Positions 4,676 through 45,300 of a stretch of DNA of 64,000 bases are shown here, one piece after another (within the stretch, counting starts at the first letter, position 1; every line of letters begins with the position of its first letter). Source of the stretch: an uncultured Bacteroidaceae bacterium (GTDB lineage: Bacteria > Bacteroidota > Bacteroidia > Bacteroidales > Bacteroidaceae); NCBI GenBank assembly GCA_905233285.1, contig CAJODY010000002.1, forward strand, positions 1 to 64,000, in the 5' to 3' direction. Under the pieces are notes generated by a model, which worked only from the letters and a program-made list of their open reading frames with translations, was not told the origin of the DNA and searched no databases. A program made the position numbers and the translations under genes.

Positions 4676-4843
4676 AAATCCACTTATATGACCATCCGGT
4701 GCTCAAAAGGTTTAATCTTAAAGTCCATTTTTCTCTTGTCTCTGCAAAGTTACGACACGCAATACCCTTAATAATTTTTGGATTGGAATTTAACTTTTGT
4801 TTACATTTGTGGGCTTTATTCAATGTGCTTTTTCCTGAAATTT

Positions 4844-4874
4844 GTTACAATGTTACAATGTTACAATGTTACAA
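4844..4874. repeat. 8-bp tandem repeat (GTTACAAT)~4; left arm of an inverted repeat
   Basis: gttacaatgttacaatgttacaatgttacaa; reverse complement found at 5062-5092. Confidence 0.95.
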
Positions 4875-5061: not shown

Positions 5062-5092
5062 TGTAACATTGTAACATTGTAACATTGTAACA
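5062..5092. repeat. 8-bp tandem repeat (ATTGTAAC)~4; right arm of an inverted repeat
   Basis: tgtaacattgtaacattgtaacattgtaaca, reverse complement of 4844-4873. Confidence 0.95.
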
Positions 5093-5302
5093 ATTACAAA
5101 GTGTTAACGTGTGTAAATTTGTGTAAAATTAGCTTATCGCTTACAGCTGACTGCTTACCGTAGTAGGATGTGACTTCGAGGTAAAAACAAAAAATATCGG
5201 TTTGAGTTTGAAAGTTACGAAAAAAACTTTGTATCTTCGCACCTGATATACTATGACATTGAAAAGAACAACTGGGACGCCAGCTGACTAAATCAAACGA
5301 CA

Positions 5303-5386
5303 ATGAGAGCAAAACCTGTTGAAAAAAAAGAAAAGGTAGAGAAGTGCCTTAAAGAGAGTGAGTCGTTGCGATTAAGAAAGATATGA
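5303..5386 (+). CDS. Putative 27-aa leader ORF overlapping the DpnI-like gene
   Basis: ATG..TGA reads MRAKPVEKKEKVEKCLKESESLRLRKI; its stop overlaps the next start (ATGA). Confidence 0.35.
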   Translation: MRAKPVEKKEKVEKCLKESESLRLRKI

Positions 5387-6150
5387 ATTTACGTTTTGAC
5401 ATTTCGTTAGCAGAAGGATATAAAAGTCCAACGCAGATAGCACGTGTGCTGACCGAGGATTGGTTAGCGCGAAATATGTATTGCCCTATCTGTGGCGAAG
5501 TGTCTATTCGCCGTGCAGAACCTAATGCACCTGTGAAAGATTATGTTTGCGAAAAATGCAAATCACAATATGAGTTGAAAAGCAAGAAGACAAAAAGTGA
5601 AAGTTTTCAAGCAACTGTAGCGGATGGTGTTTATCGAACGATGATAGGACGTATCACTTCGCTTGACAATCCCAGTTTCTTTTTTCTGCACTACAACCGC
5701 TATGAAGTTAACAACCTGGTAGTAGTACCCAAATGCTTTTTTACTCCGTCAGTCATAGAGAAAAGAGCGGAGTTGCCAAGTACGGCACGGAGAGCAGGCT
5801 GGGAGGGGTGTAATATTCTTATGAAAGCAATACCGGCGACTGCAAAGATTCCAATAATAAGGAATGGTATGGTACGACCAATCCAAGATGTTGTAACTCA
5901 GTATCAGAAGGTGTATAATCTTCAAACCGACTCTATGAGAAGTCGTGGTTGGTTGATGGATACATTACATCTCATTGAGCGTCTCGACACAACGTTTTCA
6001 CTTGACCAATTATATGCCTTTGAAGATGAACTGAAGCTGAAGCACCCTGATAACAATCATATCCCCGACAAAATACGCCAGCAGTTGCAATTCCTCCGAG
6101 ACAAAGGTTTCATAGAATTTAAAGGTAGAGGAAAATATAAAAAACTTTAA
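5383..6150 (+). CDS. DpnI-family (methyl-directed GmATC) type II/IIM restriction endonuclease; Dam-replacing-like
   Basis: Closely resembles recalled DpnI along its length: ILTEDW/VLTEDW, zinc-binding YCPICG...CEKC, catalytic D...YELKSKK, ARRAGWEGCNI, C-terminal winged-helix end QQLQFLRDKGFIEFKGRGKYKKL. Confidence 0.92.
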   Translation: MNLRFDISLAEGYKSPTQIARVLTEDWLARNMYCPICGEVSIRRAEPNAPVKDYVCEKCKSQYELKSKKTKSESFQATVADGVYRTMIGRITSLDNPSFFFLHYNRYEVNNLVVVPKCFFTPSVIEKRAELPSTARRAGWEGCNILMKAIPATAKIPIIRNGMVRPIQDVVTQYQKVYNLQTDSMRSRGWLMDTLHLIERLDTTFSLDQLYAFEDELKLKHPDNNHIPDKIRQQLQFLRDKGFIEFKGRGKYKKL

Positions 6151-6152
6151 CT

Positions 6153-6770
6153 ATGGATGAAGATAAGAATTTCCTAAGACAGGACAATAACTACCGGACA
6201 TTAAAGGCGTTTAAGAAGGCTGAGTGTATATATGATGTAACGTATTACTTTGCCAATACTTTTCTGAAACCTAACGACCGGACGGTTGACCAGATGATTC
6301 AGGCTGCCCGCTCGGGAAAGCAGAATCTGGCTGAGGGAAATATCGATGGTATCACGTCACGCGAAATGGAGTTGAAGCTGACGAATGTGAACAGAGCATC
6401 ACTTCATGAGTTATTGTTGGATTATGAGGATTATCTGCGTGTACGCGATTTGGAGCAATGGAAATATGACGACCCTCGTTGTGTGCAGACGCGTGACTTT
6501 TGCAGAACTCACCTCGACTCCGCTATTTTCAGAGAGAAGATAAAAGAACGTTCGGATGAAACTATTGCCAACATCGCCATTACGTTAATTCGTCAGTGTG
6601 ATGTACTGATAAAGGGGCTGATTGAATGGAAGAAACGTGATTTCGTTGAGAAAGGCGGTATCAAAGAGGAATTGTACAAGGCAAGAAAGGACTGGCAGAA
6701 GAAAAACGGAGCCTATGGGAAGATACCGTATGAAGGACACGGATATAACGGGGATAATGGGGCAAAATAG
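6153..6770 (+). CDS. Four-helix-bundle protein (IVP/S23-like, four helix bundle suffix family)
   Basis: DRTVDQMIQAARSGKQNLAEGNIDGITSREMELKLTNVNRASLHELLLDYEDYL; paralogous to 44506..45300; starts 2 bp after the DpnI-like stop. Confidence 0.8.
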   Translation: MDEDKNFLRQDNNYRTLKAFKKAECIYDVTYYFANTFLKPNDRTVDQMIQAARSGKQNLAEGNIDGITSREMELKLTNVNRASLHELLLDYEDYLRVRDLEQWKYDDPRCVQTRDFCRTHLDSAIFREKIKERSDETIANIAITLIRQCDVLIKGLIEWKKRDFVEKGGIKEELYKARKDWQKKNGAYGKIPYEGHGYNGDNGAK

Positions 6771-6834
6771 GTTTATGGGGCAATGCCTAATCGGCCTCAA
6801 TCGCCTAATTAACCCATTGAGAAAAATTAGAAAT

Positions 6835-6895
6835 GATCTTTTTTGATCAAAAATATTAAAGAATGATCTTTTCCCATTTATATATTTTTTTGATC
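6835..6895. promoter_or_regulatory. Cluster of four GATC sites upstream of the DpnA-like methyltransferase
   Basis: GATC at 6835, 6845, 6865 and 6892; 14-bp palindrome TTTTTGATCAAAAA at 6840-6853; direct repeat AATGATCTTTT at 6832 and 6862. Confidence 0.75.
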
Positions 6896-7966
6896 TTACT
6901 TTTGCATCCGCTAACGATGCAAATGGATTATCAAGTAACGAGAACGACGGCTTCGTCACGTAGTGTATACGTGGGTGTCTCGTCAGCTCAGAAAGCTGAG
7001 GAGAGAGTCCGAGATCTAAGTCGAGATGACAAGGTCGTACTTGATTATCCTAATCTGAAATATATAGATGGCTATTCAGATAACAAGCAGGGAGTTCAAC
7101 CGTTTTATCGTTCTGCCAATCGTAACTTCAACCTTCTTCATGGCGATACGTTTGAGTTGCTTCCGCAGTTCAAATTCAAGTTCGACATGATATTTGCTGA
7201 CCCGCCTTATTTCTTGTCGAACGACGGAATAAGTGTACAGTCGGGTAAAGTCGTGAGTGTGAATAAGGGGGAATGGGACAGAGGTGGTACGCAGGAGGAG
7301 ATTGACGATTTCAATCGGAGGTGGATTTCCCTTTGCAGGGAGAAACTGAAGGATAATGGCACGATATGGATTTCAGGCACGTATCATAATATTTTCTCTG
7401 TGGCTAATTGTCTAACGCAGTTGGGATTTAAGATTCTCAATGTGATTACGTGGGCAAAGACTAATCCGCCACCAAACGTTTCGTGCCGCTATTTCACGTA
7501 CAGCACAGAGTTCATCATCTGGGCACGGAAGTGTGCAAAGAAGCCGCATTACTATAATTATGAGTTGATGAAGTATCTGAATGATGACAAGCAGATGACT
7601 GATGTGTGGCGACTGCCGGCTATCGTACCTTGGGAGAAATCGTGCGGCAAGCATCCTACGCAAAAGCCATTGGCTCTGTTGAGCCGCATCATAATGGCTT
7701 CAACTAAATCCGGTGCGTGGATTCTAGACCCTTTTGCCGGAAGTTCGACAACTGGCATTGCTGCCAATCTGCTTGGTCGCCGTTTTCTTGGTATCGAACG
7801 CGAACAGGAGTTTGTTGAGATGAGCCGTCTTCGCCGTCTGGAGATTGAGAATCTGGATACGTTCCATAAGTATCGCTCGAAGATTAAGGATGTTGTTCGC
7901 ACGGAGGAACTAGGTGCACAACTTGTGGTTGCCGAGGATGTCCCCGAACTTGATTTACCTTTTTAG
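6863..7966 (+). CDS. DpnA-like beta-class adenine-specific DNA methyltransferase (true start may be 6917 or 6923)
   Basis: Motif IV DMIFADPPYFLSNDGISVQSGKVVSVNKGEWDRGG precedes motif I DPFAGSSTTG; CRYFTYSTEFIIWARK, GKHPTQKP; strong resemblance to recalled M2.DpnII (DpnA). Confidence 0.9.
   Translation: MIFSHLYIFLILLLHPLTMQMDYQVTRTTASSRSVYVGVSSAQKAEERVRDLSRDDKVVLDYPNLKYIDGYSDNKQGVQPFYRSANRNFNLLHGDTFELLPQFKFKFDMIFADPPYFLSNDGISVQSGKVVSVNKGEWDRGGTQEEIDDFNRRWISLCREKLKDNGTIWISGTYHNIFSVANCLTQLGFKILNVITWAKTNPPPNVSCRYFTYSTEFIIWARKCAKKPHYYNYELMKYLNDDKQMTDVWRLPAIVPWEKSCGKHPTQKPLALLSRIIMASTKSGAWILDPFAGSSTTGIAANLLGRRFLGIEREQEFVEMSRLRRLEIENLDTFHKYRSKIKDVVRTEELGAQLVVAEDVPELDLPF
6897..6904 (+). promoter_or_regulatory. 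Bacteroidetes -7 promoter element (TAnnTTTG) for the methyltransferase
   Basis: TACTTTTG, 13 bp before ATG at 6917. Confidence 0.5.
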
Positions 7967-44505: not shown

Positions 44506-45300
44506 ATGGAAGACGACAAACCGAGAAATGGCAAGGATGAGGAATGTAAACCAAAAACTCCAAGCATTTTTCGAAATGTGCCTAAATGGCAAGACTTGCG
44601 ATTCTATCAGAAGTCGGAAGTATTGTATCAGATGACAGTCGTTTTCTGCGAGCGTTTTCTACCTAAACATGGCGACCGAACTGTAGATCAGATGGTACAG
44701 GCGGCGCGTTCAGGCAAACAAAATATAGTAGAAGGTTCGGAAGATGGTAAGACCTCGACTGCAATGGAGGTCAACCTACTCAACGTAGCACGTTCAAGTA
44801 TCGGTGAACTGCGTCAGGATTACGAGGATTTCCTGAAAGCCCGCCATCTGAAAATATGGACTCCTGACGATACACGATTCCAACCCATGCAGGACTTTAC
44901 TCGAAATCACAACTCCCTTAGTGACTACGAACCATATTTTCAGCAATGGACTGCTGAGGAGATGGCTAACGTGGGGTTGACCTTGTGCTATCAGGTTGAT
45001 GTTATGATGAACAAATACTTGAAGGGCGTTGAGGAAATCTTCATCAAGGAGGGAGGCGTTAAGGAGCGTATGCACAAGGCTCGCACGGACTACCGACGTC
45101 AGCAGGACGAACGTATGGCTGAGTTGGAACGTACGTTACCACTACTACAAAAGCAGCTCGCAACTGCCCAGGATGAAGCTGCTCAATGGAAAGCCGCCTA
45201 TGAAGACTTGAAGCAACGTGCTCTTAAAGCTTACAATCAGCAGCAAGAGGAAATACAGGAACTTAGGAACAGACTGGATGCAAAGCAAGAAATGGCTTAG
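44506..45300 (+). CDS. Four-helix-bundle protein with C-terminal coiled coil (paralogue of 6153..6770)
   Basis: GDRTVDQMVQAARSGKQNIVEGSEDGKTSTAMEVNLLNVARSSIGELRQDYEDFLKARHL. Confidence 0.8.
   Translation: MEDDKPRNGKDEECKPKTPSIFRNVPKWQDLRFYQKSEVLYQMTVVFCERFLPKHGDRTVDQMVQAARSGKQNIVEGSEDGKTSTAMEVNLLNVARSSIGELRQDYEDFLKARHLKIWTPDDTRFQPMQDFTRNHNSLSDYEPYFQQWTAEEMANVGLTLCYQVDVMMNKYLKGVEEIFIKEGGVKERMHKARTDYRRQQDERMAELERTLPLLQKQLATAQDEAAQWKAAYEDLKQRALKAYNQQQEEIQELRNRLDAKQEMA

Follow-up and report, generated by a model that had tools for sequence, protein, structure and literature searches.

The window analysed here, a stretch of 64,000 nucleotides from an uncultured Bacteroidaceae bacterium, encodes on one strand a methyl-directed nuclease and an adenine methyltransferase (MTase), separated by a small gene and a cluster of GATC sites. 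The locus comprises the following features:

5383..6150, + strand: methyl-directed nuclease of the DpnI family (255 aa) that retains its catalytic and methyl-pocket residues
6153..6770, + strand: four-helix-bundle suffix protein (TIGR04258), 205 aa, between the DpnI and MTase genes
6835..6895, + strand: GATC array with sites at 6835, 6845, 6865 and 6892, spacing kept in homologous loci
6897..6904, + strand: TACTTTTG, which fits the Bacteroidales -7 box TAnnTTTG; the box is kept in aligned upstream regions
6917..7966, + strand: adenine methyltransferase of the DpnA type, DpnD-like at its N-terminus; motif IV DPPY at 7199-7210

The original prediction correctly recognized both the nuclease and the MTase, but it overlooked the four-helix open reading frame between them, the GATC array, the DpnD domain, the nine-fold avoidance of GATC in the window, and the likely origin of the locus as a converted DpnII locus. 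The four-helix protein is also encoded at one other DpnI locus (L109) and at L130, a locus of c4, a second nuclease described below; it is absent from the remaining paired loci and is probably a passenger.

The DpnI-like identity of the 5383-6150 product was borne out by matches to Pfam DpnI (7e-70) and DpnI_C (4e-31) and by its PADLOC assignment as a methyl-directed restriction endonuclease (4e-91); NCBIfam yielded no match. The PDB structures of DpnI (4esj/4kyw) align with it end to end (E 8e-74, 47% identity to the S. pneumoniae enzyme), and both the PD-(D/E)XK catalytic domain and the C-terminal winged helix are present at full length. The catalytic residues D53, E64 and K66 are retained, as are the Leu, Arg and Trp of the methyl pocket (residue roles, that is, catalytic D/E/K and a pocket formed by Trp, Leu and Arg, are taken from PMC4117772). 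At the 66 alignment columns with 95% or higher conservation among 55 homologues, the window protein does not deviate, and a dN/dS of 0.06 between the window and L109 indicates purifying selection on DpnI. By its sequence, the nuclease looks alive: catalytic death, considered in the original prediction, is not what the retained residues and conserved columns suggest, and recognition of a different mark is somewhat disfavoured because the methyl pocket is intact.

The MTase matches PF01555 (4e-61), carries the DPPY and DPFxGSxTTG motifs of beta-class N6-adenine MTases, and shows no deviations at 104 conserved columns. In the PDB, it matches CcrM and proteins of H. pylori that bear the label 'DpnA'. 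Among plasmid-borne relatives of the DpnA type, the best is the MTase encoded by the Lactococcus plasmid pSRQ700 (56.6% identity), the gene of which is flanked by those for a DNA adenine methylase and a type II restriction endonuclease; we take this to be the GATC system LlaDCHI. The DpnA-like assignment thus stands, but the start originally placed at 6863 does not: codons 1 to 18-20 of that reading frame consist of array and promoter sequence, relatives begin at the equivalent of 6917/6923, and this is probably the real start.

In relatives, most loci of this MTase family that lack DpnI have, upstream of the MTase, a gene for a DpnM-type protein (26 loci) and one for a DpnII-type nuclease (18 loci; PF04556, 7e-95), in the order DpnM-DpnII-DpnA of a GATC system. 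The catalytic core of the window MTase is 80% identical to the best operon DpnA, and its target-recognition stretch is 82% identical. The core of the DpnI-linked MTase of L081 is 93% identical to a DpnA from a DpnM-DpnII-DpnA operon, and for the c4-linked MTase of L130 the figure is 91%, with no differences in the target-recognition stretch. In the phylogenetic tree, the DpnD-fused cores do not group together but are interspersed with those of operon DpnAs; its well-supported branches require a minimum of six changes of label. Given this operon context, the common cores and the clustering of GATC upstream of the gene in a GATC-poor window, the predicted GATC specificity of the MTase is well supported. 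Conversely, a different MTase target, one of the ways out of the conflict that had been considered, is disfavoured because the core, including the target-recognition stretch, is common to DpnM-DpnII-DpnA operons and the GATC array in the promoter is conserved. The logic of a conflict between a methyl-directed nuclease and an adjacent GATC MTase holds.

GATC occurs 26 times in the window, against 247 expected (0.11 of expectation), and four of these 26 sites lie within the 61 bp immediately upstream of the MTase (chance about 4e-5). Other words are also depleted in the window, namely, CTAG (0.23 of expectation) and GGCC (0.27). A special adaptation to the pair was considered as the cause of GATC avoidance and rejected, because DpnII, DpnI-only and c4 loci avoid GATC similarly; furthermore, L091 contains a DpnI-MTase pair without such avoidance.

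The Bacteroidales -7 box has the consensus TAnnTTTG. The regions upstream of 16 distinct fused MTases share the consensus AA.TGATC.tttTGATCA..aA..TTAaA...TGATC, usually followed by a fourth GATC and then by a TAnnTTTG-like box; sites 2 and 3 are present in 16/16 regions, and sites 1 and 4 in most. Cognate sites thus lie in the promoter of the MTase gene, an arrangement of the CfrBI kind, before all 16 fused MTases. Short DpnA genes, which lack the array, have one GATC among 28 upstream regions. In a search of 397 genomes by spacing only, the array was found, within the family of the window, before fused MTases or within GATC-system loci, and chance matches were also obtained in genomes outside this family. 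At three DpnII loci (L136, L144 and L202), a stand-alone small DpnD gene is preceded by the array. At L203, an array of the same spacing (an AGATC variant) precedes an unrelated 116-aa open reading frame with a four-cysteine motif, with another nuclease-like open reading frame and DpnI downstream. By this comparison, with L203 as an exception, the array appears mostly to travel with DpnD.

Relatives of the window MTase contain PF14207 (DpnD/PcfM) at the N-terminus. In the window, the DpnD-like region (approximately 6923-7070) is the most diverged of 16 and falls short of the PF14207 profile at E 0.1, even though it can be aligned with matching homologues; the control catch may therefore be altered here. 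PF14207 is represented in 18 of the 297 relative genomes, and most copies lie in GATC loci, where they are fused behind DpnI or c4, stand alone with the array before DpnM, or stand alone adjoining DpnI or c4, as in the plain DpnI-DpnD order of L260 and L261. Our literature search retrieved no description of DpnD function. The comparison points to DpnD, together with the conserved candidate control element, as the common thread of the loci where writer and destroyer are both intact.

The gene order of the window is co-conserved in relatives. DpnI is followed by an intact DpnA-type MTase at nine loci (the window, L079, L080, L081, L083, L090, L091, L109 and L200), and c4 occurs instead of DpnI with an intact fused MTase at five loci (L130, L140, L142, L146 and L199). 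At all 14 paired loci, the MTase begins with a DpnD/PcfM-type domain, which has diverged in the window, and is preceded by a conserved promoter-like GATC array. The locus search reached close relatives, and most of the loci come from metagenome assemblies; L091 belongs to the isolate Prevotella cerevisiae DSM 100619. DpnD-fused MTases are intact in 14/15 cases versus about 1/18 for unfused DpnA (Fisher p ~3e-7), a contrast that was noticed before it was tested, between partly non-independent loci at which fused genes were recognized partly via their intact reading frames. The unfused DpnA genes downstream are truncated, lacking either DPPY or the N-terminal half (L068-L071, L073, L075-L077, L098, L101 and others). 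In those c4-linked or unlinked pairs of fused MTases that are close enough to measure, dN/dS is 0.09-0.11.

Many loci contain, upstream of DpnI or c4, N-terminal pieces of DpnM with varying cut points (about 50 to 240 aa), and some of the remnants are near-full-length but devoid of the conserved C-terminal motif. None of the DpnI and c4 loci examined retains DpnII. Near the window locus, there is no match to DpnII (PF04556), and DpnM was not found in the G000 assembly, although its absence is not certain because this assembly is about 90% complete; the window system thus appears to lack the combination of DpnM and DpnII nuclease that defines a DpnII-type restriction-modification system. A 27-aa leader (MRAKPV...) before the window DpnI was considered as a DpnM scar but is unconvincing, being missing from L109, and, with no convincing scar in the window itself, its history is read from relatives. 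The window and L109 share 86% DNA identity from DpnI to the array and diverge within the MTase. One genome (G089) seemed to carry both DpnI and DpnII, with a complete DpnM-DpnII-DpnA operon elsewhere in the genome, but it is not a counter-example because its DpnI (L159) is a pseudogene with three in-frame stops; such decay fits the view that DpnI and DpnM are incompatible.

The c4 protein combines a HARE-HTH-like region with a weak match to type II restriction endonucleases. It was considered as a conventional restriction endonuclease that would reveal the target of the MTase. This reading was set aside: no intact DpnM or DpnA-type MTase was found in 14 c4 genomes, and two c4 genomes contain a c4-DpnD pair. 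For the same reasons, c4 looks like a second methyl-directed nuclease, the lack of such MTases being what a modification-dependent enzyme would lead one to expect. This assignment is tentative: in one genome (G352), c4 adjoins a DpnA-like MTase of 43% identity, and in another (G151), c4 and a DpnM-DpnA pair are on separate contigs. It has been suggested that HARE-HTH domains recognize modified DNA, with cytosine the more likely site of the modification (discussed in PMC11037411).

Taken in comparison, DpnI or c4 stands in the place of DpnII, DpnM is lost or truncated, and DpnA is intact almost only if fused to DpnD behind the array. The recurrence of the pair in many relatives, with both genes intact and the MTase behind a common control region dense in GATC, suggests a controlled device rather than an accident. 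Of the ways out of the conflict considered in the original prediction, the array, the DpnD fusion and the recurrence favour a conditional or tightly regulated pair. We give roughly even chances to a converted DpnII-type system in which the retained GATC MTase is kept in check by the DpnD/GATC-array unit. DpnI would have taken over the position of DpnII at a DpnII locus, and the MTase would still methylate GATC. The array/DpnD unit, through operator methylation or DpnD binding, would hold the MTase off or at a very low level while the nuclease is active, so that the chromosome would stay free of doubly methylated GATC. Less certainly, release of control upon infection or entry of DNA could lead the MTase to mark GATC in both invader and host, and the nuclease could then destroy the marked DNA of both; this last part is speculative and modelled on McrBC. 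The outcome would be that a nuclease of methylated phages only comes to act on any GATC-containing DNA, or becomes a suicide switch. The fuller proposal, put forward tentatively, is a target-writing defence in which DpnI or c4 and a conditional GATC MTase operate under a DpnD/GATC-array switch with DpnD as the regulator; methylation would be switched on by infection or by DNA entering the cell, and the nuclease would then destroy either the marked DNA or the cell as a whole. The physiological role would be abortive infection, marking of invaders or switching.

The main rival explanation is that the MTase acts on single-stranded DNA, like pneumococcal DpnA, so that no doubly methylated GATC would arise on the chromosome and there would be no real conflict; the enzyme would then serve uptake or conjugation, or mark single-stranded invaders. 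DpnA does methylate single-stranded DNA and is competence-induced in S. pneumoniae (PMC3573125), and it is the double-strand enzyme, DpnM, that is lost at DpnI and c4 loci, with the fused DpnA kept. This explanation nevertheless seems doubtful to us: a single-strand preference alone does not predict that unfused DpnA is broken at these loci too, the GATC array is left unexplained, and unmethylated incoming DNA in a DpnI host needs no protection from DpnI. Drift of the MTase to another target, or inactivity despite its intact motifs, would also remove the conflict. The moderate identity of the window core and target-recognition stretch to the best operon DpnA (80% and 82%), the divergence of its DpnD domain, and the presence of other specificities in the beta-class family, such as that of CcrM, leave room for such drift, but it is unlikely in view of the unbroken conservation at the 104 columns, the 93% identity of the DpnI-linked L081 to operon DpnA, and the GATC kept in the array.

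Two further explanations fare worse. The pair could be a transitional relic, in which a recent recombination brought DpnI into a DpnII locus and the MTase, silent or weak, is being lost, a scenario in keeping with the truncated DpnA and DpnM at many DpnI loci and with the close similarity of the window and L109 that ends within the MTase. It is very unlikely, however, given that many species have fused MTases that are intact and preceded by conserved arrays, and given the low dN/dS of the measurable c4-linked and unlinked fused pairs. Equally improbable is a phase-variable switch, by which cells would alternate between nuclease-on and MTase-on states. GATC clusters serve methylation-dependent switches such as pap and agn43, and upstream of DpnI there is a perfect 32-nt inverted repeat of TGTTACAA octamers (4842-4873 and 5062-5093, with a 188-nt spacer), which may represent an invertible segment or a repetitive element; the repeat unit is present at two further places in the assembly. 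Yet the repeat was not found at homologous or other paired loci and was thus rejected as a conserved switch, and promoter-like TATCTTCG lies near 5233, between the repeat and DpnI.

The predicted converted DpnII-type system under DpnD/array control combines traits of several known systems. The S. pneumoniae DpnI cassette (dpnC-dpnD) likewise joins a DpnI nuclease with an accompanying DpnD-type domain, and L260 and L261 show the same plain order; in the window, in contrast, the DpnD-like domain forms the N-terminus of a DpnA-type MTase whose gene follows a GATC array, and pneumococcus keeps DpnI and DpnII as alternatives. Systems of the DpnII/LlaDCHI type (DpnM, DpnA and DpnII nuclease) share the DpnA core, the locus position and, through remnants at related loci, DpnM, but here DpnM is broken and DpnII is replaced by a nuclease of the opposite methyl dependence. 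A 2024 survey of winged-helix N6-methyladenine-dependent nucleases (PMC11037411) dealt with DpnI-like PD-(D/E)XK-wH enzymes and the same question of conflict with GATC MTases. It reports that adjacent 6mA MTases are frameshifted and that, of more than 1000 proteins, fewer than 100 present a potential conflict, and it mentions expression control as one potential solution; here, unlike in those cases, the adjacent MTases are intact, recurrent and accompanied by a candidate control element. CfrBI and LlaDII, cited in PMC3874152, are precedents for control through recognition sites located in the promoter of the MTase gene itself; the window shares the cognate site in the MTase promoter but differs in having several sites in a fixed array, the link to DpnD, and a methyl-directed nuclease as the partner. 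McrBC kills cells whose genome becomes methylated (PMC2614495), which shows that a methyl-specific nuclease can kill its host once an MTase is active, but there the MTase is foreign, whereas here it is encoded beside the nuclease. Our literature search, thin on subscription journals, found no description of a DpnD-DpnA fusion or of the GATC array. Methyl-directed nucleases are thought to need the absence of a matching MTase; here, writer and destroyer are intact together in many species, and the role of DpnD becomes directly testable.

A second TIGR04258 four-helix-bundle suffix protein is encoded in the window at 44572-45102. Such proteins have several copies in the assembly (the copy on contig C62 is 80% identical) and are common and mostly unlinked in relatives. 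At many loci without an intact MTase (L067-L077, L209-L214, L217, L219, L223 and L225), DpnI or c4 is followed by a small open reading frame (MTEYIFYTTEGFTQ...), which has no confident family match and is possibly a counterpart of DpnD.
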